A DNA stretch of 64,000 nt, taken from the IMG/VR virus record IMGVR_UViG_3300044295_000092, positions 1-64,000 of that record. One strand, given 5' to 3'. Source of the DNA: a virus. Of this stretch, positions 1 to 58,235 are shown piece after piece (within the stretch, counting starts at the first letter, position 1; every line of letters starts with the position of its first letter). The notes beneath the pieces are model-generated. The model was given only the letters and a program-made list of their open reading frames with translations, made no database searches and had not been told where the DNA came from. The translations under genes were made by a program, and so were the position numbers.

Positions 1-69
1 CACCCACCCACACACTTATGACCGAACCACCCGAACCGAACTCGGAACGGGGTTAACAAAATTCAGACG

Positions 70-105
70 AAAAAAAAAAGGGCTCGTGGAATTAACCACG
101 AACCC
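70..105 (-). terminator. Rho-independent terminator after the 227-aa gene
   Basis: Read on the minus strand, a 10-bp stem (GGGTTCGTGG with CCACGAGCCC, one G-U pair) closes a TTAATT loop and is followed by about ten T residues. It lies 28 bp beyond the stop codon of the minus-strand gene at 133-816. Stem strength and the long T-run make this a textbook intrinsic terminator. Confidence 0.93.
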
Positions 106-132
106 TTAACCCTTATAACTACGTTAACTTAG

Positions 133-816
133 TTAACTTAATACTTTCTGAACTACTGCACGAACTTCTTTGTTAAGTCTTAACGCTATCAATTCACTTC
201 TACCCTCTTGCGTTTTGAGTAGTCCGTTGAACCAATCTGTATATTGGGACTTGAAGTCCTTTAACTCTTGGCTTTCTTTGGCTTTCTCATCTTTTTCTAA
301 CTCTTGAGCTTTCTTAAACACTACGCTTGAAACCTCTTTGAATTTTTGTTTGCTTTCTTTGTCAGTTTTATCTGATAAGTTAACTAACTCTGATTTAAGA
401 TTTTCAATGCTAACGTGTTCATACTTCTTTTCTATTTCAGCTTGTTCAGCTTTCTTAGCTTGTTCATGCTTTGCAGTTTTGCTAGTGCCTTTGGGCTTTG
501 TAATGCCGTCAGCTTTAAGAATAGCAACCACTTCTTTAGAGTAGTTAGAAGCCGTTGAGGGTAAAATTTCTTTGGTATTCACAAGTCTGTTTTCAAAGTC
601 CGCAAATATCAATTCCCAGCGTTGCTTAGTGCAATCACTACCAATCAATGACTTGGTAGCTTTCGCAACCTTGAACACTAATTCACTACGTTTAAGCCCT
701 GCATGATGAGCTTGGCTCATTACATCTACCATTTCAACATCAATAAACTTCTTGTCTTGAACTGATAACACTTCTACTTGCTTTGCTGTTGCTGTTGCTG
801 TTGTTTTCTTTGACAT
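133..816 (-). CDS. Hypothetical lysine/glutamate-rich protein (227 aa)
   Basis: I do not recognise this protein. The N-terminal 90 residues look globular. Residues about 110-195 are very rich in K, E, A and Q with coiled-coil character, and a short helical C-terminus follows. The gene stands alone as a transcription unit, with a consensus sigma70 promoter at 917-945, a palindromic leader element at 848-882 and a strong terminator at 70-105. The ATG follows an AAAGAGG ribosome binding site. Such a strong promoter suggests high, probably early, expression. A DNA- or host-protein-binding takeover factor is possible, but no motif proves it. Confidence 0.8.
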   Translation of the reverse strand: MSKKTTATATAKQVEVLSVQDKKFIDVEMVDVMSQAHHAGLKRSELVFKVAKATKSLIGSDCTKQRWELIFADFENRLVNTKEILPSTASNYSKEVVAILKADGITKPKGTSKTAKHEQAKKAEQAEIEKKYEHVSIENLKSELVNLSDKTDKESKQKFKEVSSVVFKKAQELEKDEKAKESQELKDFKSQYTDWFNGLLKTQEGRSELIALRLNKEVRAVVQKVLS

Positions 817-847
817 ATTAAACCTCTTTAAGTTAAGTTATAAAATT

Positions 848-882
848 CGTTCTGCTTTGCACGATTGAGTGCAATTCAGAAC
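848..882. repeat. 35-nt nested palindrome, copy A
   Basis: This is one of five copies of an imperfect palindrome built as GTTCTG, 2 nt, TTGCAC, 6 nt, GTGCAA, 2 nt, CAGAAC. Both arms pair perfectly in this copy. It lies in the 5' leader of the 227-aa gene, between its promoter (917-945) and its start codon (816). The other copies are at 57042-57076, 59453-59487, 61126-61160 and 63801-63834. It could be a DNA operator or an RNA hairpin. Confidence 0.85.
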
Positions 883-916
883 ACTTATGAACTGAGTTAA
901 CTCAATTCATACGAGC

Positions 917-945
917 ATTATAGCATAACTAATTGACAATGTCAA
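917..945 (-). promoter_or_regulatory. Consensus sigma70 promoter for the 227-aa gene
   Basis: On the minus strand TTGACA (945-940) and TATAAT (922-917) are separated by exactly 17 bp, and TGC precedes the -10 box (extended -10). The -35 box is half of a perfect 13-bp dyad, TTGACATTGTCAA (933-945). The same dyad overlaps the -35 boxes at 61198-61226 and, with one mismatch, 47311-47338. This implies shared control by a dimeric regulator. Confidence 0.9.
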
Positions 946-1021
946 GTATATTATAAGGTATAACCCCTACTACCCCCCTATACCCCCAAAATTTTTTGGG
1001 ACTCCCACACAGGCGCGTACA

Positions 1022-1051
1022 TTGAACTTTGCACAAATAATAGGATATAAT
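1022..1051 (+). promoter_or_regulatory. Putative promoter for a small RNA
   Basis: TTGAAC (1022-1027), an 18-bp spacer and a perfect TATAAT (1046-1051) point to transcription starting near 1058-1060. That is exactly where the structured segment beginning GGGTTCG starts. No credible coding region follows on this strand before 2106, so the promoter probably serves a non-coding RNA. Confidence 0.55.
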
Positions 1052-1059
1052 TTAAAAAT

Positions 1060-1166
1060 GGGTTCGGTTAAGCCGACTTCAAAGGACATAGTAAGTTTGG
1101 CTTTTTTCGGCTTTCCGCCAGACAAGCAGTAACTATCAAATTTGCGAACCCACCCCCTTCTTTTTA
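1060..1166 (+). ncRNA. Candidate phage small RNA (about 105 nt)
   Basis: A 7-bp closing stem joins GGGTTCG (1060-1066) to CGAACCC (1145-1151). Inside it, GTTTGGC (1095-1101) pairs with GCCAGAC (1117-1123) and ATAGT (1088-1092) pairs with ACTAT (1132-1136). The 3' flank CCCCCTTCTTTTT could act as a weak terminator tail. A TATAAT box sits 9 nt upstream. It is not a tRNA, because no T-loop consensus precedes the 3' acceptor strand. The stretch otherwise lies between two minus-strand transcription units. The existence of the RNA is inference from structure plus promoter. Confidence 0.5.
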
Positions 1167-1202
1167 AAAAGGGCATTTCAAAAAATTTTTTGCAAAAAAT
1201 TT

Positions 1203-1227
1203 AAAAAAATGTGTAATATACTACACA
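1203..1227 (-). terminator. AT-rich intrinsic terminator of the 1268-2007 operon
   Basis: On the minus strand TGTGTA (1227-1222), a 6-nt loop and TACACA (1215-1210) are followed by seven T residues (1209-1203). It lies about 40 bp beyond the stop of the SprT-like gene. The stem is short and AT-rich, but it is perfectly paired and has a good T-tract. Confidence 0.65.
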
Positions 1228-1267
1228 ATTTTCATTCATATTAAAAAAGTCAGAGGTTGAATGAAAA

Positions 1268-1612
1268 CTAAAAGGTCTTACGATTGTAGCCGTAGAGTTT
1301 GCAGATCTCATCTGCTAGTACATCAAACCGCTCATCGTGCTTTTCATGGTCGTTGCTTTTTGGATTACGAGTGTAATTAAGAAGGTGAATCATTTCGTGA
1401 TGTAGAACTTCAGAAACTTGCTTTAAAGATTTGCGTGACTTATCTATCTGTATACGCATAGGTGGAGTAAGAAATAACCCATAACAATCAGGACTATCTA
1501 TAATTTCAAATTGTATTTTTACAGGGGCGGGCATCTTATAACGATTGAACGGAGGCATTGCAATAAAGCATTTATATAGCTGCCGTAACGTTCGCTTGTT
1601 ACAAAATGTCAA
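1268..1612 (-). CDS. SprT-like zinc metallopeptidase
   Basis: This 114-residue protein carries an HExxH zinc-binding motif (H72-E73-M-I-H76) in a helix preceded by a conserved HH pair. Further conserved-looking H/D/E residues follow (DHEKHDERFD, about 89-98), as in compact SprT-like and phage metallopeptidase families. The substrate is unknown; SprT relatives act on proteins bound to DNA. Its start overlaps the stop of the upstream gene (ATGA at 1609-1612), so the two are translationally coupled. It is the last gene before the terminator at 1203-1227. Confidence 0.7.
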   Translation of the reverse strand: MTFCNKRTLRQLYKCFIAMPPFNRYKMPAPVKIQFEIIDSPDCYGLFLTPPMRIQIDKSRKSLKQVSEVLHHEMIHLLNYTRNPKSNDHEKHDERFDVLADEICKLYGYNRKTF

Positions 1613-2007
1613 AACGAATAAACCTCGAAATAAACCATAGCATTATTATTTTCAAATTTAACTGTAGGCAAATTTCTTGGTTTAAACAATTCAGGATTAT
1701 ATACACCAGTTGCATCTATTTCAGGAAAGTAGATTAAAACAGAACGCATGCCATTCACATTATCCATTCTCCAGCAACCTTCATGATTAGCATGCCCTTT
1801 TTCAGTGGCATAAGCTGCATAAGGATAGTTTTTTAAACCCATCTTAATAAACTCACAAGGTTCTTTAGTCAAAACAACTTCACCAGTCTCTGATTTCATA
1901 GAGAACTCTTTAATATCTTCTTGAGATTTACTTTCCATAGGCCATAATGCAACCCACCAAAGTAAAATTCCTGCAATAGTAATTGTGATGAGGTCTTTCA
2001 TGTACAC
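1609..2007 (-). CDS. Hypothetical exported or membrane-anchored protein
   Basis: The 132-residue protein begins with a hydrophobic segment (about residues 6-23) after MYMKD, which looks like an uncleaved signal anchor or signal peptide. The remainder is soluble, with two cysteines (C52 and one in a GCWRMD motif near 79). I do not recognise a family. A start at the third codon is also possible. It heads the short operon with the metallopeptidase gene and diverges from the terminase operon across the 2008-2105 gap. Confidence 0.65.
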   Translation of the reverse strand: MYMKDLITITIAGILLWWVALWPMESKSQEDIKEFSMKSETGEVVLTKEPCEFIKMGLKNYPYAAYATEKGHANHEGCWRMDNVNGMRSVLIYFPEIDATGVYNPELFKPRNLPTVKFENNNAMVYFEVYSF

Positions 2008-2025
2008 ATTATACTAAAAAAGTAC

Positions 2026-2054
2026 TTGATTTATATAATAAATTAGTATATAGT
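2026..2054 (+). promoter_or_regulatory. Putative promoter of the virion operon
   Basis: TTGATT (2026-2031) and TATAGT (2049-2054) are separated by 17 bp on the plus strand, 52 bp before the start of the terminase small-subunit gene. The match to sigma70 is good at -10 (5/6) and partial at -35 (4/6), as expected of a promoter that needs activation. It lies in the divergent gap between the left minus-strand operon and the virion module. Confidence 0.5.
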
Positions 2055-2105
2055 GCCGTCCAATAGCTGCAAAAATAAATTCAAGGATGTAAACAGCGAC
2101 ATTTT

Positions 2106-2687
2106 ATGGCAATAACCATTATTCCAACGGCTAATGTGCCACTTCCTGACGACTTTGAGTCGGAAGAACCTACTACATTAGAACAAAAAGTCAAAGTAGC
2201 TGCTAAAACCATGCAAATTTTAGATGAAGCAGGGGCAGAAATCCCAGTTTCTACACAAGAAAAGCAAGAAGCTGAAGAAATATTTAAAAATTTTACAAAT
2301 CCAGACATAACTGCTCCATTAAATGCTGCTACTAAGCAAGCTTTGAATGTTCCTGCTACAGTTCAGCATTTATATGCGATGTTATCGGACTATGATCATC
2401 AAGTTGTACAAGAAGCCGTCCAATTGAGACGGTTTGTTACTAATAAACTAATAGAAGATGCAGGGTTATCAGATCCTAGACATAGATTGAAAGCATTAGA
2501 GTTACTTGGTAAGATAAGTGATGTGGGTTTATTTTCAGAAAAAACAGAAATTACTGTTAAAAACTTATCACAAGAAGATTTAGAAGCTCAAATTAAAGCT
2601 AAGATGTATAAAATACTAGGCAAGACTGCAGTTATTGATGCATCATTTGAAGTTGTTGAAACAAAAGACGTAACACCTGATATTTAA
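2106..2687 (+). CDS. Putative terminase small subunit
   Basis: The gene sits immediately upstream of the large terminase gene, 1 bp away, at the head of the virion module. The 193-residue product has an acidic N-terminus and a helical core. A segment near residues 135-155 (KALELLGKISDVGLFSEK) resembles the LLGK..GLF motif common in phage small terminase subunits. It would recognise phage DNA and deliver it to the ATPase/nuclease subunit. The ribosome binding site is weak. Identification rests mainly on position and this motif. Confidence 0.65.
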   Translation: MAITIIPTANVPLPDDFESEEPTTLEQKVKVAAKTMQILDEAGAEIPVSTQEKQEAEEIFKNFTNPDITAPLNAATKQALNVPATVQHLYAMLSDYDHQVVQEAVQLRRFVTNKLIEDAGLSDPRHRLKALELLGKISDVGLFSEKTEITVKNLSQEDLEAQIKAKMYKILGKTAVIDASFEVVETKDVTPDI

Positions 2688-2688
2688 T

Positions 2689-4230
2689 ATGGCGATACAA
2701 ATACCAGGTGTCAGTGAAGCTGATATAGATAAAGCGTTAGCTAATATTTCTGTTCTTCCTCCTCATGAGCAGATGCAGTTTTTAGCACAGCTAAATGAAT
2801 TAGAGAAAACACAAGAAGTATCACAAAGACAGACTACATTTTTAGAATTTGTTAAACATGTTTATCCAGGATACAAAGTAGGAGCTCATCATAAAAAACT
2901 TGCACAAATCTTTGAAGACATTGCTAACGGAAAAAAGAAACGAGTTATTGTTAACATTGCTCCGCGACACGGGAAATCCGAACTCATCTCATATTTGGCA
3001 CCGGCTTGGTTTTTGGGTAAATACCCGGCTAAGAAGATTATTATGGCATCTCATACAGCTGACCTTGCAGTTAACTTTGGTCGACGTGTTCGTAACCTTG
3101 TGGGTAGTGATGCTTATAAAGATGTTTTTCCCGAAGTAGAGTTACAAGCTGATAGCAAATCCGCATCTCGCTGGGGAACTAATTTTAATGGGGAGTACTT
3201 TGCCATCGGTGTGGGGGGTGCTCTTGCTGGTCGTGGCGCCGATTTATTTATCATTGATGATCCTCACTCAGAACAGGATGCGAAGCTCGGACGTCCGGAT
3301 GTTTTTCTACCTGCTTGGGAGTGGTTTCAGTCTGGTCCTATTCAGCGTCTTATGCCAGGCGGTGCTATTATTGTAGTGATGACTAGGTGGTCTAAGTTAG
3401 ATTTGACGGGCCAAATAGTTAACCAAATGGTAAAAAATGAAGGCGTGGATGAGTGGGAAGTTGTTGAATTTCCAGCGATTATTGAAGACAAAGAAGGTAA
3501 CGAAGCTTCACTATGGCCAGAGTTTTGGCCACTAGAAGAACTAAAAGCAAAGAAGGCTTCACTTGATATACGATATTGGAATGCGCAATACTTACAGAAC
3601 CCAGTATCAGAAGAAGGTGCCCTCATCAAACGTGAATGGTGGAAGATATGGGATAAAGAAGATCCACCAAGTTGCGAGTTTACGATTATGGCGCTTGATG
3701 CAGCCCAAGAAGCTAACACAAGGGCTGATTATAATTCGTTAACTACGTGGGGTGTCTTTTTTAACGAAGAAACCAATAATTATAATATAATACTGCTAAA
3801 TGCAATAAAGAAACGTTTGGAATTTCCAGAACTCAAAGAACTTGTTCTAGAAGAATATAAAGATTGGGAACCCGACGCATTCATAGTAGAAAAGAAATCT
3901 AACGGAGCAGCTCTCTATCAAGAGATGAGAAGGATGGGTGTTCCGATAGGAGAATTTACACCTGGAAAAGGGCAAGATAAGATTAGTCGCGTTAACTCTG
4001 TGGCAGACTTGTTTAGATCAGGAATAGTATGGGCACCCGATAGACGTTGGGCACATGAACTGATTGAAGAGTGTAATGACTTTCCTGCAGGTGCTAACGA
4101 TGACCAAGTGGATAGTACAACATTAGCCTTGATGCGCTTCAGACAAGGTGGGTTCATTAGATTACCTAATGATGAACCTGATGAGATATATGGCTTCAAG
4201 AGTAGTAGAAACAGATTGTACTTAGTATGA
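2689..4230 (+). CDS. terL: Terminase large subunit
   Basis: This is the packaging motor ATPase and nuclease (513 aa). The N-terminal ATPase has a Walker A-like motif APRHGKSE (91-98), a Walker B LFIIDDP (186-192) and a coupling segment VMTRW (230-234). The C-terminal RNase H-like nuclease shows the expected acidic residues, in LDAA (D337), VEKK (E401) and NDDQVD (D471, D472, D475). Length and motif order are normal for the family. The stop overlaps the start of the next small gene (ATGA at 4227-4230). Confidence 0.97.
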   Translation: MAIQIPGVSEADIDKALANISVLPPHEQMQFLAQLNELEKTQEVSQRQTTFLEFVKHVYPGYKVGAHHKKLAQIFEDIANGKKKRVIVNIAPRHGKSELISYLAPAWFLGKYPAKKIIMASHTADLAVNFGRRVRNLVGSDAYKDVFPEVELQADSKSASRWGTNFNGEYFAIGVGGALAGRGADLFIIDDPHSEQDAKLGRPDVFLPAWEWFQSGPIQRLMPGGAIIVVMTRWSKLDLTGQIVNQMVKNEGVDEWEVVEFPAIIEDKEGNEASLWPEFWPLEELKAKKASLDIRYWNAQYLQNPVSEEGALIKREWWKIWDKEDPPSCEFTIMALDAAQEANTRADYNSLTTWGVFFNEETNNYNIILLNAIKKRLEFPELKELVLEEYKDWEPDAFIVEKKSNGAALYQEMRRMGVPIGEFTPGKGQDKISRVNSVADLFRSGIVWAPDRRWAHELIEECNDFPAGANDDQVDSTTLALMRFRQGGFIRLPNDEPDEIYGFKSSRNRLYLV

Positions 4231-35025: not shown

Positions 35026-38000
35026 ATGGATGATTTAAAAGAACTCTATAGAGTCCTAGAAAATGCAGATGCTGCTGGTGATGAAGCTTCAGTAGCAGAA
35101 TTAATACCTTACATCAAACAGGTTGAAGCTGCACAAGCTCAACAAGCTGTAGAAGAAACCCCCGTAGAAGCCCCACAAGCTGATTTAACTAAACCCCCTA
35201 AAGTTATACCTAAACCATCTATTGATGTTATGGGTCGTCAATTTACACCTGAAGAATATGCAAAATATTCAGGTATGCCTATAGCTGCTAAACCAGGTGA
35301 ACAAGCTAAAGGTGCTTTCTCAGGTTCATTTGGTAGAAGCATTTATAATTTAGCTGCTGATCTTGCGTTAGCGCATGGTAAAGCTACAGGTAATGTTGAT
35401 GAAGCTGAAGCTACTGCTAAACGATTAAGAGAGTATGGGGCTAATACATATACGGATACTACTAAAGGATGGAAAGAAGATCCTTTAACTAAAATACTAG
35501 AACTAGCAGGTGGTTCTGCGCCATACATGGTTGGTCCTATTACAGCTGCTTTAGGTTCTACAGCATTAGGTGCAACGGGTGCTGTTGCAGTAGCTGCTCC
35601 ATTATTAACTTCTGCTACTCAATTTACTGGTTCTAACTTGCAACGTCAAATGGACCAAAACAAAAAACTTGCTGATACAAGTTTATTAAAAGCAGGTGCT
35701 TTGGCTATTCCACAAGCAGCTCTTGACCAAATTGGTTTTAGATTTATTCCAGGAATCAAAAAATTATTTGGTGCTGCAGGTAAAGAAATTACTGATGAAG
35801 CAGCAAATGCATTAGTTCAAAAATCAATACTCTCTAAAGCGGGTGAAAAAATACTAGCTACAGGAGAAGCTATGACTGTTGAAGGCGGTACTGAAGCTGC
35901 TCAACAATTATTAGAAAGACTTCAAGCAGGGTTATCTATTACTAGCCCTGAAGCTATGCAAGAATACTTTGATAGCTTTATTGGTGGAGCTGTATTAGCT
36001 GGTGGTTTAGGAACTGCTGGACATGTAGTAGAATCTGTTGCATCGAGATTTCCTGAAAAACCTACAACAGAAACTCCTGAAACTCCTGAAGTAGAAGCCC
36101 CACTTACCGAACAGAAACGCCCATCAAGAGAAACTTTAAAACGTCAGTTTAAAAAGAGTGCTCAAGAACAAGCTGACGAAGTTAACAGAGTTAAACAAGA
36201 GGAAGCGGATAAACTTAAAGCCGCTCAGACTCAACAAACTATATCTGAAGCCGCTGACTTAGAAGGAGCAGCACCTATAACACCAGGTGTCATTACTCCG
36301 ACTACGTTAACTTCGTGGGGTATTAGAAAAGGTTCTAATGCATATAAAGCTTTAGAAGGTGTAGATGCAAGCACTCCAGAAGGCCGAGACCTTATGGATA
36401 AAACATTAGAAGCACATACAGGTAAAATAAACGAACAAGCGGTAGATACATTTACAACCTTACTCGATCAGAAAGTGAAGGCACCCGATGCAAGAATTGA
36501 CCTTGGAACAACTCGAATTAGCGATGCAGTACTTGGAGGACAAAAATATGGCACTCCCGGAGGAGTTGAAGGACGTTACGGACCTACAACTGATATCAGT
36601 GGAGGTCTTGCTGGAGTCGATCAAGAGGGAAAGGGCGCAGGCGACGTTACATTAAAAGGTCCTGAAGCCAAAGCTAAACCTGAAACATTAAAAAGTGGCG
36701 AACGACTACTTAATATTCAAGAATTACTCAACGACCCTAATCCACAACAAAGACGTGCAGCTAGACGTAAGTTTGTTGATATGTTTCAAACATATCAAGC
36801 CAATGAACTTATTAAAGAAGAAGCTAAAGTTGAACGTGCAGAACGAGAAAAACTTTCTAAGCTTAAAAAGACTGAGTATCCGATTGTTGACCAATCAACT
36901 AATCTAGCAAACATCTTAAGTACTCTAAAAGATAAACCTAACTATCTCATTGAAGATTTAAGAAATGAAGATGTGCCTGATGCTGAACGTCAAGAACTTA
37001 ATCAGCATGCTCGTGATTACTTATTAGCAGAAAGTCTACGCAACAAATATAAAGTGCGTATGACACCTGAAGAAGTTAAAGCTCTAGAACAAGAAGGTGA
37101 AAAGGTTGCTCGCACGGAAAAGCCTCTCTCTGAAGATGAGTTTAAAGACTTACAAGAAGAATTTTTATCTAGACAAGCAGCAGAAAAAGGTCCACTAGAA
37201 GCTCGTGCTCCAGAGATACAATCTACAGGTGAGACACCTGAAAGTATTGAAGGCGCATTCCAAAAACAATATGGTAAAAATGTACGTCTAGCTAAACAAC
37301 GTGGACTATTAAACTTCCTAAATGATGTATCTGAGTTACCTCCTGAAATAGGTAAAGTAAGTCCTAATACTAAAGCTGTATACCATAAAGGTAAAGGTTA
37401 CTTTATCACTAATCGTATTACCAAAGAAGATGCACCACGTATGCTTCTACATGAGATTGGTGTGCACTATGGCTTAGAAGGCATGCTAGGCACCAATAAC
37501 TACAAACGTTTAGTTAAACAAATTAAACAAAATCATCTTACCGACAAAGAATTAAAAGCAGCTTGGGACAATACTGTAGATACTTATCCTGAATACGCTG
37601 AAGGTAGTGAAAACTTCATGCAAGAAGTCATTGCTAACTTGAGTGAGTCTGCTCCTAACAATTCTATAATTCGTCAAATTATAGGTTACATTAAACAGTT
37701 CCTATCTAAACTAGGTTATGGTTGGGACATTAATAAGATCACAGCTGATGACATTCGTGATATGGTTCAGCACTCTGTGCGTATGTCTCTTGCAGGTAAA
37801 ATTAAAGGTGTTGAACCTGAACTTGTTATGGCAGCAGAAGAAACAGGTGCACCTAAACCTACATACTATTCAGCTCTATCTCGTGTTATTACTAATGCAC
37901 AGTTTAAAAATAATGTGTCTATTCAATCAGGTGAGCAGTGGGTTAACTGGCTCAATAGCAAAACATCTGAAGCAGGTGTTAAACGTGATGAATTAGAATT

Positions 38001-41000
38001 CTCAGGTCTATTAGAATTTTTAGAGTTAAATAAATCAGAGAAATTTAATAAGCAGGATATATTAAATTACCTTAATGATAACGGCACTAAAGTTTCTGAA
38101 TATATGTATGGCGAAGGAGAAGGTAATGCTTACTCTGACCAAGATAGAGATGAATGGGTAGCCGATGCTTTTTCAGAATGGGAAGAATCTCAACCTGACT
38201 TATGGAGTCAAGCTAATGATGAGGCCGCAGATACTTATGACTTCCCTTATTATGTTAAAGAAGAAACAGATAATGAAGGAAATACAGGTTATAGAGTATA
38301 TGTTGAAGGAAGTCTTGTTTATGATGAGTTTTATCCTTCAGAAGATGAAGCACAACAAGTAGCTGATGAGGCCAATAGCGAAGGTCTTAATGAATATGCA
38401 GATAATATTCATGAAAGATTAGCATATGAATTTAATGGCGCTGCTGACGCTGTTAGAGATGAGTTATATGATCAGTGGGATGAAGATCATGCAAATGTAA
38501 AAACTAAATATTTAGATTGGACTTTAGAAGGTGGAGATAAAAAATACACTGAAGTTATAATTGCTCTACAAAACCCTAAAAAGGGAACAGCATTTTCTCA
38601 TCAACATTGGCCTGATATTTCTAATCCGATAGCTCATTATCGTGTAAATGCACGTATGGATGATAAAGGTAATAATGTTTTATTTGTAGAAGAAATACAA
38701 TCTGATTGGGCACAAGCTCCTAAGAAACTTCGTAAAAAACATATTAAAGAATTAGCAGAAAAATATAAAATTGATGAGAAGAAAATTGCTCAATTTGTTC
38801 CAGGAGATTGGGGATTTATAAGAAAATCTTCTCCTGAGCAAATAAAAGAAATTAATGAAATAATTAATAAGTTACAAGAATTTAAAGCTGCTAGAAGGCA
38901 ACTATCAGATCAAATTTCTAAACTTTTAGATTTTAGAAATCAATTTGCAGATATTATTGATACGGAAGTTCGTAAACGAATTGGCCCTATGGATGCTACT
39001 GAACGTGGTTATGACATGACACGTTATGATTATATTAAAAGTGTTTTAAATAATGACATTGAAGGAAAGACAACCCCTTCTGGATATAAAATAGACGGTA
39101 AAATAATTAGAGACATATTAAATGAACCTATTGTTGATGGAAACATTGAACAGTATCATAAAAATCAAGATACTTTAGATAAGTTATTATATAAAGAAGA
39201 ACAACTTGTTCAAAAAATAGATGACCTTGAATCTAAAAAAGAAGCTTTTTCTCAATCAGGAAAATTTGAAAGAGGTCCATTTATTCAAGATACTGAAGCA
39301 TGGAGTAATCTTGTTCTTAAAAATATTATTAGGTTTGCTGCAGAACGTGGATACGATAAAGTGGCTTTTGTTAATGGCAAGCAAGCTGCATTTAAAGGCG
39401 GTAAGGCAGAAAGAATTGATGAAGTATTTGGAACTAAAAACGAAGATGGTACATTTACTATATATGCTACATTAAAAGATGGTGGTGGTAGATCTCGCAC
39501 AATAGAAAAAGTTCGTGACTTAGATTTAGAAGATTACGTAGGTGGTCTTGCTGATAAAATGCGTTCACTTAAAGTAGGTGAGACAGATGGTTGGGATGCA
39601 GGGGAACTTAAACTACCTGCACAAGGTATGGTTGAGTTCTATGATCACTACATTCCTAGATATGCAGCTAAACTAATTAAGAAGTTAGGTGGCACACAAC
39701 TAGAAAATATTGAACTCATACCACCAAATCAAGATCGTCCTGTCGATGAAAAAGTTGGTAATCAAATAGGCTTTACAGTAACTTCAGCTATGAAAGAAAA
39801 AGCCATGGCTGGTCAACCCCTATTTGCTCGTGCATCTAAACAACAACTTGATGAAGATTTAAAGAAATCAGGCACAGTAGGTAAAGAAGAAAAAGGCCTC
39901 CCAACTTTAAGAGAAAGGTTCATGGGAGCACCTTTAAAAACAATTGATGAATTAATTGCTGACTTTAGAAAATCATTCTTCTCATTCGATGCAGCTATTA
40001 ACAATAAAATGATTATTGCTGCTAAGAAAATGGGATTAACTCCTAAGCAAATAGCAGATATGATTTATGCAACTCGAGTATCTCAAGCAGTTAAAGCAGA
40101 TCAATTAGCTGATATGTGGATGGTGCATGGAGGTGTTCAATATGACCCTCAATCCTTCAGCTTTGTTGTAAAAGATTTAGCTAATAGTATGTCAACTATT
40201 AGAGAGCAATTAAAAGCTTTAGCTAAAAAATATGGCGTATCTGAATATGAAATGTATCAATATGGTAATGCTGCATTTGTATCACAACGCTCTAGAGAAT
40301 TAGTCAATCACAATAATAGATTATATAGACGTATAGTAAAACTTTATGCGGCTGGTAAAACTGCTGCCGCTGATAAAGCAGCTGATAATTATAAGCTAGT
40401 TCACCAAACACCATCAGAAATAAAACGTGGGTTAAAATTCTTTGATACTATTCCTGAGCTTAAAAAAATTGCTAAAACATGGAATATAAATAGAAAACGT
40501 ATTATAAACTTTGCAGTGGATCAAGGTTTATACTCTAGAGAAAAAGCAGATGATTTACTTGATGTTATTCACTATGTGCCTTTCTTTAGAGATAAACAAA
40601 TTGAAAATAGAAAAGGCCCTAACTTATATAAACGAGGTCTACTTGATGCAGCAGTAGATAAACGATTAAAAGGTAGCTACCAACCTGTCCATAATGTATT
40701 TGTTAATATGGAATTATGGTCTAAGTATATATTTAAAAAATCTATTAATAATAGAATTGCTCAAGAAAAAATTAATTATTACTCTAAGCTATTACCTGAT
40801 GATGTTAAAGTATTAAGAAACACTAGATCAGTTACAGGTAATAACGTAGCCGTTTGGCAAAAAGGTAAAGTTGTTAATTATGAGTTCCAAGGATACGATG
40901 GTGAAAGTATGGTGGATGGTTTTACAGGATTAGAACCTGCAACCATGTTACCAGGAGCCGCATTCTTTAGACCATTTAATACATTCTTACGTGCACAAAT

Positions 41001-42585
41001 TGTATTAGAACCTTTATTTAACGTAGCTCAAATTCCTATGGATATGTTTAATGCTATGTTTTCATCAGGGGTTAATGTTTCATTAGCAGTGCCATTACAA
41101 GTAGCTAAAGAAATTATACTTACTCCACTAGGTTTAAGTAGTGCTAGAAAATATTTATCTGCAAGAGCAGTTACAGGTAAACATGATTTTACTTCTGAGT
41201 ATGATGTCATTGATATTAATGCTATGAAAGAAGTTAAAGAAGTTACCAAAATGGGCAAGCTAATTGAATATAGTTTAGCTCCAGCAAAAGCTATTCTTAA
41301 AGGTTTAAGATTCTTTGGTATGGCATCTGACAACGTTATTCGTCAAGCAGTGTTTTCACAAATTATGCTTGAAACAGGTGATGTAGCACGAGCTACTAAT
41401 GCTGCTGATGAAATCATCAACTTCCGTAGAACAGGTTCTTCTGCTGTTGTTAATATTGCTAGGCAAAACGCCATCTTCGTAAATGCTAACTTACAGTCTA
41501 TGAACATTGCTTTTGGAACTTTAATGTTTAGCGACATTACGCCTGATAAAAAACTTGTTCAGGCAAGACGATTAATTCTTAACGGCGCACAAGTTGTTAT
41601 GGCTATATTAGCTATCACTGCTATGAATGCAGATGACGATGATTATAAAAAGTTAGACCCTAAAGATCGTGATAACTATATTGTATTACCTGGAACAGGT
41701 GGTTATAAGTTACCACTTCGTGGCGATATTCTTACTACTTTATTTAAAATATTACCTGAGCATTTATATAATAGATATATTGCAGAGAGTGAAGATTCAG
41801 AAAAAATGAAAGTTGCTTTATCAAGAGCATTTAAAAAAGCATTCACATTCCCTTCACCATTTCCTAATGCACTTACATCTATAGTTGAACAATCTTTAAA
41901 CTTTGACTTTGTAACAGGTAGACCTTTAGTAGGTCGTGGTCAAGAAAATCTAGCTCCTGAATTACAATTTAGTAATAAATATACATCAGAGTTTGCTAAA
42001 TATGTATCTGATTTATCAAGAGATAAATGGTATGAAACATCTCCAGCGGCTGTTCAACATTTTATGAATCGATGGTTAGCATCTACTAGTATGCTTGTAG
42101 GTATGTTTACTAATAGTATTGTAGCTCAAATAAGAGGGGATATAATACCTGAATTAACTACTAAACAAAAACTATTACAAATACCTAATATGGGTAAATT
42201 TGTAAGTAAAGAAGAAAATACTCGTAACATTAACGATCTTTATGAACTTAATGATTTAGTTAACTCAGTGGTTCAAACAGCAACTAAATATGAAAAGCTA
42301 GGCGATCATGAGAATTTTAGAGAGTTCTTAAATAAAGATAATAATCAACAGTTATATAACTTAAGAAAAGAACTTGCCACTATATCTCGTGACTTAGGTA
42401 ATTTAAGAGAATGGGAAAATAGAGTTTACTATTCTAAAGATGCAGGTCGATGGACACCACAAACTAAACGTCAAGAACTAGATCGTATTGAAGCTACTAG
42501 ACAAAGAATTATTGGACACGAACAAGGTGTCAAAGAAGCTATTGATCGTAGAATTCAGAACCTAAGAAGACAAGGCGGCTTATAA
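35026..42585 (+). CDS. Giant polyvalent internal protein (2519 aa)
   Basis: The largest product. The N-terminal third has alpha-helical hydrophobic stretches (about 155-205). A zinc-peptidase-like HEIGVH lies near residues 809-814. A FVEEIQSDW segment near 1222, with QNPKKGTAFSH before it, is typical of 'large polyvalent protein-associated' domains in DarB-like and megaprotein families. The C-terminal third has further helical segments with hydrophobic runs. Such proteins are packed in the head and ejected to defend DNA or modify the host. The stop abuts that of the convergent minus-strand gene. Domain boundaries are approximate. Confidence 0.65.
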   Translation: MDDLKELYRVLENADAAGDEASVAELIPYIKQVEAAQAQQAVEETPVEAPQADLTKPPKVIPKPSIDVMGRQFTPEEYAKYSGMPIAAKPGEQAKGAFSGSFGRSIYNLAADLALAHGKATGNVDEAEATAKRLREYGANTYTDTTKGWKEDPLTKILELAGGSAPYMVGPITAALGSTALGATGAVAVAAPLLTSATQFTGSNLQRQMDQNKKLADTSLLKAGALAIPQAALDQIGFRFIPGIKKLFGAAGKEITDEAANALVQKSILSKAGEKILATGEAMTVEGGTEAAQQLLERLQAGLSITSPEAMQEYFDSFIGGAVLAGGLGTAGHVVESVASRFPEKPTTETPETPEVEAPLTEQKRPSRETLKRQFKKSAQEQADEVNRVKQEEADKLKAAQTQQTISEAADLEGAAPITPGVITPTTLTSWGIRKGSNAYKALEGVDASTPEGRDLMDKTLEAHTGKINEQAVDTFTTLLDQKVKAPDARIDLGTTRISDAVLGGQKYGTPGGVEGRYGPTTDISGGLAGVDQEGKGAGDVTLKGPEAKAKPETLKSGERLLNIQELLNDPNPQQRRAARRKFVDMFQTYQANELIKEEAKVERAEREKLSKLKKTEYPIVDQSTNLANILSTLKDKPNYLIEDLRNEDVPDAERQELNQHARDYLLAESLRNKYKVRMTPEEVKALEQEGEKVARTEKPLSEDEFKDLQEEFLSRQAAEKGPLEARAPEIQSTGETPESIEGAFQKQYGKNVRLAKQRGLLNFLNDVSELPPEIGKVSPNTKAVYHKGKGYFITNRITKEDAPRMLLHEIGVHYGLEGMLGTNNYKRLVKQIKQNHLTDKELKAAWDNTVDTYPEYAEGSENFMQEVIANLSESAPNNSIIRQIIGYIKQFLSKLGYGWDINKITADDIRDMVQHSVRMSLAGKIKGVEPELVMAAEETGAPKPTYYSALSRVITNAQFKNNVSIQSGEQWVNWLNSKTSEAGVKRDELEFSGLLEFLELNKSEKFNKQDILNYLNDNGTKVSEYMYGEGEGNAYSDQDRDEWVADAFSEWEESQPDLWSQANDEAADTYDFPYYVKEETDNEGNTGYRVYVEGSLVYDEFYPSEDEAQQVADEANSEGLNEYADNIHERLAYEFNGAADAVRDELYDQWDEDHANVKTKYLDWTLEGGDKKYTEVIIALQNPKKGTAFSHQHWPDISNPIAHYRVNARMDDKGNNVLFVEEIQSDWAQAPKKLRKKHIKELAEKYKIDEKKIAQFVPGDWGFIRKSSPEQIKEINEIINKLQEFKAARRQLSDQISKLLDFRNQFADIIDTEVRKRIGPMDATERGYDMTRYDYIKSVLNNDIEGKTTPSGYKIDGKIIRDILNEPIVDGNIEQYHKNQDTLDKLLYKEEQLVQKIDDLESKKEAFSQSGKFERGPFIQDTEAWSNLVLKNIIRFAAERGYDKVAFVNGKQAAFKGGKAERIDEVFGTKNEDGTFTIYATLKDGGGRSRTIEKVRDLDLEDYVGGLADKMRSLKVGETDGWDAGELKLPAQGMVEFYDHYIPRYAAKLIKKLGGTQLENIELIPPNQDRPVDEKVGNQIGFTVTSAMKEKAMAGQPLFARASKQQLDEDLKKSGTVGKEEKGLPTLRERFMGAPLKTIDELIADFRKSFFSFDAAINNKMIIAAKKMGLTPKQIADMIYATRVSQAVKADQLADMWMVHGGVQYDPQSFSFVVKDLANSMSTIREQLKALAKKYGVSEYEMYQYGNAAFVSQRSRELVNHNNRLYRRIVKLYAAGKTAAADKAADNYKLVHQTPSEIKRGLKFFDTIPELKKIAKTWNINRKRIINFAVDQGLYSREKADDLLDVIHYVPFFRDKQIENRKGPNLYKRGLLDAAVDKRLKGSYQPVHNVFVNMELWSKYIFKKSINNRIAQEKINYYSKLLPDDVKVLRNTRSVTGNNVAVWQKGKVVNYEFQGYDGESMVDGFTGLEPATMLPGAAFFRPFNTFLRAQIVLEPLFNVAQIPMDMFNAMFSSGVNVSLAVPLQVAKEIILTPLGLSSARKYLSARAVTGKHDFTSEYDVIDINAMKEVKEVTKMGKLIEYSLAPAKAILKGLRFFGMASDNVIRQAVFSQIMLETGDVARATNAADEIINFRRTGSSAVVNIARQNAIFVNANLQSMNIAFGTLMFSDITPDKKLVQARRLILNGAQVVMAILAITAMNADDDDYKKLDPKDRDNYIVLPGTGGYKLPLRGDILTTLFKILPEHLYNRYIAESEDSEKMKVALSRAFKKAFTFPSPFPNALTSIVEQSLNFDFVTGRPLVGRGQENLAPELQFSNKYTSEFAKYVSDLSRDKWYETSPAAVQHFMNRWLASTSMLVGMFTNSIVAQIRGDIIPELTTKQKLLQIPNMGKFVSKEENTRNINDLYELNDLVNSVVQTATKYEKLGDHENFREFLNKDNNQQLYNLRKELATISRDLGNLREWENRVYYSKDAGRWTPQTKRQELDRIEATRQRIIGHEQGVKEAIDRRIQNLRRQGGL

Positions 42586-57080: not shown

Positions 57081-58235
57081 TTAATCATCAATGTTAATTG
57101 TCTTACCATGTGGTGATGTGATATGTCTAGATGTAATAGCCCAAAGGGTTGGGTATTCCCAATTACCACCAAAGTCATCTTCAACATAACCATCGGTTAA
57201 TATAATGATAGCTTCAGGTGCGATGCGTTTATCCTTGATATACTGATTGACGCAACCGACATGAGTGCCACCTCCACCTGCAGGTTTTGTGGACTGAACC
57301 AACGCTTTGTAATCGCCTTGATTGTATGTCTCATGACCTGCGACTGCCGTATCCCAATACAACAACTCGATACTAGATGGGGATACATCATCACATATCG
57401 CTACAACTTCTGTTAGAAACTCATTGAGTTCCTTATCACCAATAGAACCTGATGTGTCAATACCAATCACGACTTGACCAATAGCTTCACCAATCATGCT
57501 AGGCATATAAATATCTTGTCCCAAGAAACGCTTGTGTGGTCGTTTCCATGAAGTTCTATCTTTGTTCTTACATGTGCTATTCACAAACTCACGCAACTGC
57601 TCACGCCAATTTACTTTAGGTTCAAGTATTTCTGTGACAGACCTATTCTTATTACCTTGCATCTTGCCACGTATGATTTCACCTTGACGTAATGCTTGGT
57701 CTATCTGCTTGGCAGTTTCTTTAACTTCCTCATCAGATAAACTTTCAGCACCTTCCCAATCATGTGTATCATGACCTGCTTGACCACCACCATTATCTTT
57801 GGCATCTTGCATAAGCTTGTCAAAGATTTGTTTGGTTGTCATACCTTTATACTGCAAATCAAACAACGCACTATCGGGTCGTTGTGCTATCACACCATGT
57901 TCATCAGCTTCATGTATCGCATAGTTCACGACATAGTCAGCCGCCATGTTAGCCGCCATAGGATTTATCTTGAATAGCTTTTTCCATAGGTGCATATGTT
58001 GATAGACTTTGTGTAGTGCCTCATGCAACACGACAAAGTTTAGTTCTTTATCATCTAATGTTTTGATGAAGTCTGCGTTATACATGACATCACGACCATT
58101 GGTGCAAGCCGTTGGTATGTCATCTGTAAAGATAACCTTGCCCACCGACAACACGCCTGCAAACATACAAAACTCCTTGCTACGCATTATCGCTATGTGG
58201 GACTTTGTTATCCTTTGTTCACTTGTTAGTGCCAT
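57081..58235 (-). CDS. VWA-like metallopeptidase domain protein (DUF2201 type)
   Basis: 384 residues. The N-terminal metallopeptidase-like part carries LHEALH (H71-E72-A-L-H75). The C-terminal von Willebrand-A-like part starts VVIGIDTSGSIG with a MIDAS D-x-S-G-S (260-264). This arrangement is the known DUF2201 layout, found with MoxR AAA+ ATPases in a chaperone-like pair. The MoxR gene is separated only by a 52-aa gene. Starts ATGGCACT with a GGAG upstream. Confidence 0.85.
   Translation of the reverse strand: MALTSEQRITKSHIAIMRSKEFCMFAGVLSVGKVIFTDDIPTACTNGRDVMYNADFIKTLDDKELNFVVLHEALHKVYQHMHLWKKLFKINPMAANMAADYVVNYAIHEADEHGVIAQRPDSALFDLQYKGMTTKQIFDKLMQDAKDNGGGQAGHDTHDWEGAESLSDEEVKETAKQIDQALRQGEIIRGKMQGNKNRSVTEILEPKVNWREQLREFVNSTCKNKDRTSWKRPHKRFLGQDIYMPSMIGEAIGQVVIGIDTSGSIGDKELNEFLTEVVAICDDVSPSSIELLYWDTAVAGHETYNQGDYKALVQSTKPAGGGGTHVGCVNQYIKDKRIAPEAIIILTDGYVEDDFGGNWEYPTLWAITSRHITSPHGKTINIDD

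Follow-up and report, generated by a model that had tools for sequence, protein, structure and literature searches.

The question raised by this locus is whether the segment between two minus-strand genes, in the 64,000 nucleotides of viral DNA that were analysed (the window; positions 1 to 64,000 of IMG/VR record IMGVR_UViG_3300044295_000092), encodes a structured RNA and, if so, how this RNA might be made and on what it might act. The initial annotation, made from the letters of the window, had suggested a small RNA transcribed here from a promoter of its own, and its description of the site was confirmed by direct reading: a TATAAT is followed by a 92-nt segment closed by GGGTTCG/CGAACCC, and minus-strand genes flank the segment on both sides (Table 1). 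The gene upstream, which is divergent from the RNA, encodes a protein without a match to any Pfam or PHROGs model, and the terminase genes start approximately 1 kb beyond the RNA region. The promoter-like site showed 10 of 12 consensus matches in a promoter scan, and 8 nt separate the end of its TATAAT (1051) from the start of P1 (1060). Since such sites are common in positions 1-4000 (20 found, compared to a shuffle mean of 11.3), the site alone is weak evidence.

The window by itself also offers material for the opposite reading, in which there is no RNA and the segment folds by chance, is an intrinsic terminator or belongs to a coding sequence. Folded as a single sequence, positions 1022-1166 were ordinary (z 0.22; 114 of 200 shuffles folded at least as well), and thus the shape seen in the window is what chance gives on single-sequence evidence. 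In addition, two open reading frames cross the RNA, one of 68 aa on the minus strand and one of 24 codons on the plus strand. From the window alone, the case for an RNA would be weak. A scan of positions 1-4000 found no intrinsic terminator-like site on the plus strand. The annotation's statement that the segment does not fit a tRNA was borne out, as ARAGORN found no tRNA or tmRNA gene in the 64-kb window and the Rfam searches were empty at the RNA.

Two further features were observed in the surrounding DNA. A perfect TTGACA-17-TATAAT promoter with a TG before the -10 lies on the minus strand at 917-945, in front of the 227-aa gene. An A/T-rich stretch at 1168-1208 (TTCAAAAAATTTTTTGCAAAAAATTTAAAAAAATG) adjoins the 3' end of the SprT-like gene and gave blastn matches in at least 30 of 82 loci compared, most of them without the RNA; it is perhaps a two-way terminator.

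Table 1. Features at and around the RNA locus in the window, with pairing statistics from the alignment of 53 sequences.
Feature	Position	Strand	Remarks
227-aa gene	133-816	-	Upstream neighbour, divergent from the RNA
Predicted sigma-70-like promoter	1022-1051	+	TTGAAC 1022-1027, 18-nt spacer, TATAAT 1046-1051
Structured RNA, conserved core of the family	1060-1151	+	92 nt; model match 1055-1155
P1, GGGTTCG/CGAACCC	1060-1066 with 1145-1151	+	Inner pairs: 91.1% of cells paired; both-side changes in 6 of 6
Probable pseudoknot helix, AAGCCGA/TCGGCTT	1070-1076 with 1107-1113 (P3 loop)	+	99.7% paired; both-side changes in 6 of 7
P1b, CAAA/TTTG	1080-1083 with 1141-1144	+	100% paired; both-side changes in 2 of 4
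P2, ATAGT/ACTAT	1088-1092 with 1132-1136	+	98.9% paired; both-side changes in 3 of 5
P3, GTTTGGC/GCCAGAC	1095-1101 with 1117-1123	+	One G-U; 91.3% paired; both-side changes in 6 of 7
SprT-like putative metallopeptidase gene	1268-1612	-	PF10263, 28.8 bits; 3' end faces the RNA
pqqA, 25 aa	10735-10812	+	Behind the major capsid gene; ribosome-binding site; followed by a hairpin with a T run; not adjacent to the RNA

Comparative searches revealed that at least 73 IMG/VR loci, with at least 54 distinct core sequences, carry the RNA, and four more loci are known only through a scan that started from pqqA, the small gene of the precursor peptide of PQQ, a vitamin-like cofactor. The route led from a terminase search, which gave at least 80 related loci, through nhmmer with the RNA, which located the element in L001, L006, L016, L028 and L040 (on the opposite strand relative to the terminase in the last three), to pattern scans of IMG/VR and a covariance model, R1, built from 19 distinct sequences. 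With the covariance models, members scored about 73-110 bits and all other matches at most about 26 bits. The RNA of the window scored 102.8 bits with R1 and 99.5 bits with a model R2 (filters off), and the second-best place in the 64 kb scored 16.3 bits with R2. Pattern matches lacking covariance-model support were dropped as chance (6 of 27, namely L088, L097, L098, L104, L108 and L109, as well as L110-L115 and L256), as were most new rows of three later pattern scans. Duplicate contigs (L084-L087, L089) were counted once; L148, which ends at a contig end, is included in the 54 distinct sequences and left out of the 53-row alignment.

Outside this set, blastn of window positions 900-1300 against phage records returned chance pieces only. 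A 27-nt match in Salmonella phage FSL SP-076, where the rest of the fold is absent, and a 28-nt match in Cronobacter phage ESSI-2 were rejected, and R1 rejected all nine stretches from a pattern scan of genome contigs. In the bacterial family of genome G182, tentatively Methylophilaceae judging from its frequent pqqA (present in 47 of 57 genomes, many with 3 to 9 copies), the best scores were 20.2 bits with R1 (57 genomes) and 20.8 bits with R2 (39 of these genomes). A scan of 369 genomes of the bacterial class with R2 gave a best score of 26.3 bits, compared to about 74-110 for members, and this match was rejected, the conserved core being absent. Because no credible bacterial copy was found in these genomes, no host function hints at the target of the RNA.

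The alignment of 53 sequences (A3), which is almost gap-free, revealed a common fold in which a long interrupted stem, P1-P1b-P2-P3, is accompanied by a helix of 7 bp between the P3 loop and the P1/P1b junction, probably a pseudoknot. In the consensus, the 5' half comprises P1 (of variable length), 3 nt, the pseudoknot 5' strand, 3 nt, P1b (CARA/UYUG), GGAY, P2 (RUAGU/ACUAU), AA and P3 of 7 bp, whose apical loop reads UUUU, the pseudoknot 3' strand and UC; after this loop the 3' half continues with AUGUAAUA, P2', YAAA, P1b' and P1'. The two further pairing regions that had been noted inside the closing stem are thus real as pairing and too few in number, since four helices (P1b, P2, P3 and the loop-junction helix) accompany P1.

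Covariation carries the case for this fold. Double changes were present in 28 of the 34 pairs (23 of 34 in A1, an earlier alignment of 19 sequences), pairs were formed in 90.0% of cells compared to 69.2% in shuffles and at most 44.2% with slid partners, and the covariation score was 0.567 compared to 0.190 (sd 0.009) for shuffled and at most 0.135 for slid alignments; these counts lean to the nested helices, because A3 was fitted to R1, a model from which the pseudoknot is absent. It is these pairing counts in 53 relatives that lift the fold above chance. Lack of stem conservation in relatives had been named at the outset as an outcome that would speak against the candidate, and the stems proved to be kept with many compensatory changes. 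The loop-junction helix occurs as AAGCCGA/TCGGCTT, AAACTAC/GTAGTTT, AAGCCTA/TAGGCTT, AAGTCGA/TCGACTT and AGGCAGG/CCTGCCT; P1b has a further compensating change, TAGA/TCTA, in the four members from the pqqA-first scan; and P2 varies in compensating ways, as revealed by a pattern scan that left it free, in which 23 of 24 new stretches were members and many had TAGC/GCTA in place of TAGT/ACTA. The outer pairs of P1 are often missing (55.5% of cells paired). Core-pair cells held 54 G-U and 19 A-C combinations, and this excess of G-U indicates that the plus strand is the folded one.

Among unpaired positions, G13, C23, G30, G31, A32, A39, A40, T49-T52, T60, A77, A87 and A88 (A3 numbering) were invariant in 53 of 53 sequences. 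Nearly all conserved bases are helical or belong to loops no longer than 8 nt, and the longest unpaired stretch of the core, also of 8 nt (A3 columns 70-77), is variable at several positions. Nested energy models favoured other folds (mean of -15.7 kcal/mol for the consensus compared to -21.1 kcal/mol for the minimum over the 53 sequences), and the pseudoknot duplex alone averaged -8.0 kcal/mol. The loop-junction helix and the P1b-P2-P3 stem may coexist or alternate, as the covariation counts are compatible with either.

The same alignment bears on coding. No reading frame is conserved across the core, the best of six being open in 18 of 53 members, in line with the initial statement that no plausible protein is encoded there; a peptide-like plus-strand frame (GTT AAG start, ten codons) was rejected, since just 6 of the 53 members have it open across the core. 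Conserved structure, compensatory changes and no conserved open reading frame, the features expected of a small non-coding RNA, are found together in this family. Covariation, the G-U strand bias, the lack of a conserved frame and the lack of a plus-strand terminator-like site in positions 1-4000 all speak against the reading without an RNA, which is refuted for the family and, taken as a whole, very improbable. Decay confined to the window is possible, though the window copy keeps all five helices.

The RNA corresponds to no catalogued family. Rfam 15 gave no match at the gathering score in the window or in nine member loci, and in ten further loci (nine of them with the RNA) its matches were limited to tRNAs (L173) and a single tmRNA (L291), all away from the RNA; these hits served as positive controls of the same searches. 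Weak matches obtained with loose thresholds (E 0.07-0.3) were unrelated to the RNA and differed from member to member. In the portions available of the literature on pqqA and PQQ, methylotroph phages and phage structured RNAs (including PMC9004378, PMC11118758, PMC7678222 and PMC2864571), no report of this RNA was found, and the titles and abstracts listed on PQQ and riboswitches contained no RNA tied to PQQ. Phage-borne structured RNAs as such are known; this family is new, and its placing and partner are unusual.

Ribozymes occur in phages, and the size, the pseudoknot and the invariant bases of the present RNA resemble those of small ribozymes in general terms, so that self-cleavage generating defined RNA ends was considered. 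We regard this as quite improbable, since no Rfam ribozyme matched at the gathering score in the window or in 19 further loci, and in window-type phages a transcript would start at P1, leaving little to cleave off.

Genomic context analyses revealed several placings of the element. In ten loci, namely the window and its nine closest relatives with upstream sequence (L006, L094, L100, L101, L103, L138, L144, L152 and L154), the upstream gene is divergent and a -10 of TATAAT or TATTAT stands at the same distance before P1, after a nearly constant stretch, with weaker -35 elements in the relatives (TTGAGA, GTGAGT, GTGAAC, CTGAAC and the like; both elements read by eye). The promoter of its own that had been claimed for the RNA therefore gains from a -10 that recurs in the same place, and it is a consensus match of a common kind all the same. 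Outside these ten loci, the RNA mostly sits directly behind a gene. It follows a SprT-like gene on the same strand in 8 of the 54 distinct cases, and also in L311 as judged by eye, while it lies directly behind pqqA in 16 of 54 (20 of the 73 loci listed) and is convergent to pqqA, with abutting ends, in 4 of 54 (10 of the 73 loci listed).

At least 14 unrelated immediate contexts were distinguished with 1.5-kb flanks and a 15% threshold, and pqqA was adjacent in at least one locus of six of them; single-linkage clustering of 4-kb flanks was too lax, joining 69 of 73 loci, and the 1.5-kb version was used. One cluster holds both the form with a promoter-like site (L001 type) and the form behind the SprT-like gene (L016/L028/L040 type), which indicates that, in a single phage lineage, both the strand of the element and the source of its transcription have changed.

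These placings bear on an explanation to which we give a modest chance, namely that the RNA acts in cis at the 3' end of transcripts, as a compact pseudoknot that would halt 3'-to-5' exonucleases or mark where a transcription unit stops and so prolong the life of short messages, that of pqqA among them. In accordance with it, 30 of the 54 distinct cases have the end of a same-strand gene (pqqA, or one of at least 60 aa) no further than about 45 nt from P1, the downstream neighbour is convergent in 40 of 52, the stop codon of pqqA falls within the 5' strand of P1 in several pqqA-linked cases, and members of the L083/L090/L137 type have a separate hairpin with a T run beyond the RNA. The sequence that comes after P1 differs between members. 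However, in the window and nine relatives P1 comes 8 nt after a promoter-like site and the gene upstream is divergent, and these phages would thus have no message to protect. Moreover, ten loci have the RNA convergent to pqqA and not behind it, and the conservation of the loop sequences exceeds the need of a simple roadblock.

The recurrent partner of the RNA is pqqA, which lies within about 110 nt in 30 of the 73 loci listed, its positions having been set by a regular expression that may miss variants. In the window, residues 2-23 of PqqA were 100% identical to the 23-aa query peptide, which was identified as PqqA by PF08042 (42.4 bits) and TIGR02107 (40.4 bits). Three phage variants of the peptide scored 42.4, 36.6 and 37.9 bits with PF08042 (cut-off 21.1) and 40.4, 35.2 and 34.4 bits with TIGR02107 (cut-off 20). 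A search of 14 virus records with the RNA found pqqA somewhere in 11; the other three, of 41, 6 and 11.5 kb, may be fragments. Starting from pqqA DNA without regard to the RNA, a scan gave 6 carriers of the RNA among 80 loci listed, 74 being without it; the RNA was directly behind pqqA in five carriers and about 1.3 kb before it in one. None of seven pqqA-bearing phage records (six cultured, one assembled) contained the RNA. In L083, L090, L093, L137, L146, L169, L170 and L173, a recurring stretch like TAATGATTTTACTGATG separates pqqA from the gene before it and may be a promoter or end element common to these loci. Viral pqqA has already been published as an auxiliary gene of Methylophilaceae phages of Lake Baikal (PMC7678222); it is the same gene in methylotroph phages, and the parts of that article available report no RNA beside it.

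The invariant loop bases, the compact pseudoknot and the repeated adjacency to pqqA could also suit a riboswitch or other aptamer sensing a ligand such as PQQ or a precursor. This is unlikely, given that the RNA is not placed before a gene that it could control (the next gene being convergent in 40 of 52), that the gene commonly found upstream has, in some cases, no relation to PQQ, and that no expression platform was recognised. A wider version, in which RNA and pqqA form a two-part cassette, is offered tentatively and as rather improbable: the phage RNA would sense PQQ or its making, or capture a host regulator or nuclease, and so steer methanol oxidation during infection. If true, it would be, to our knowledge, the first RNA tied to PQQ.

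Regarding hosts, 12 records of the phage collection matched PqqA, and nine of these name a Methylophilales or Methylophilaceae host; the other three are one assembled genome without a host and two records labelled Acinetobacter phage, which carry pqqBCD and look bacterial. By this association, the hosts of the RNA family would be Methylophilales methylotrophs, and the host of the window phage is likewise assigned by association only; its terminase is nearest to those of phage 023Pt_psg01 and pelagiphages, at about 50%. One of the mislabelled records, L174 (CAKLQF020000010.1, Acinetobacter phage MD-2021a), contains pqqB, pqqC and pqqD as well as polyphosphate kinase, and has the look of a bacterial contig. 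The records L167-L173 (MW202481, MT375522, KX815270, MW452941, OP830907, OP830906 and MZ577097), which are cultured Methylophilales phages and one assembled genome, have pqqA unannotated or called hypothetical, and in phage Melnitz pqqA abuts a tRNA-Leu gene.

Taken together, the reading that we favour, with confidence slightly better than even, is that of a putative trans-acting folded RNA of methylotroph phages that binds a protein or a ligand. The same fold is kept as a free unit, as a 3' tail, and collinear with or convergent to pqqA; an element acting in cis on a single message would be lost in such moves, which makes action in trans most likely. In the window phage, the RNA would be transcribed from its own promoter with its 5' end at P1 or slightly upstream; in relatives, the RNA would be made as the 3' tail of the mRNA of another gene (pqqA, the SprT-like gene and others). 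Its partner may be a protein or a small ligand, with the RNA serving as decoy, regulator or scaffold, and the regulatory or decoy role suggested in the initial annotation would fit here. Such a partner is likelier than antisense pairing, because the conserved bases are locked in helices and short loops. As the hosts appear to be Methylophilales methylotrophs, the target could plausibly lie in host RNA metabolism or in PQQ and methanol oxidation. Against a trans-acting RNA, most pqqA phages are without it, and its location between a stop codon and a convergent gene would be explained equally well by an element that acts in cis at the 3' end.

Comparison with known systems shows partial likeness. 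The 3'-UTR-derived small RNAs of bacteria arise either from their own promoter at a gene end or from a processed mRNA tail, and usually act by single-stranded seed pairing; the present RNA would have two similar origins, whereas its conserved bases are mostly in helices and short loops. The manA and wcaG motifs are structured RNAs of cyanophages located in potential 5' UTRs (Weinberg et al., 2010; PMC2864571), and according to the text available of that article they, too, are RNAs of aquatic phages thought to serve changes in host metabolism; unlike them, the present RNA is free-standing or behind genes and matches no Rfam model. The same source, as far as available, describes the L17 downstream element, a structured RNA in a 3' UTR, as highly unusual in bacteria (PMC2864571). 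That element belongs to a ribosomal protein gene of Lactobacillales, whereas the RNA described here follows various phage genes, also has a promoter-like site and has no Rfam match. The OM43 phage Melnitz has a glutamine (glnA-type) riboswitch linked to a tmRNA, as given in the portions available of its description (PMC9004378), which is likewise a structured RNA from a phage that infects the same order of bacteria; the present family is absent from the Melnitz record and matches no Rfam riboswitch.

The structure of the RNA is clear, its natural variants are numerous, and pqqA recurs as its genetic partner in methylotroph phages. Small conserved pseudoknotted RNAs with invariant loops usually prove to have sharp biochemical functions, and methylotrophs connect methanol with the carbon cycle of freshwater and the sea. 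Should PQQ supply or a host RNA enzyme be its target, the RNA would give a view into phage takeover of one-carbon metabolism; should it serve as a 3'-end shield, it would be a rare bacterial counterpart of exonuclease-resistant viral RNAs.

Elsewhere in the window, positions 35026-42585 encode a protein of 2519 aa with an LPD38 domain (large polyvalent protein domain), and a minus-strand gene at 57081-58235 encodes a protein that combines domains of the DUF2201 putative metallopeptidase and VWA-like kinds.
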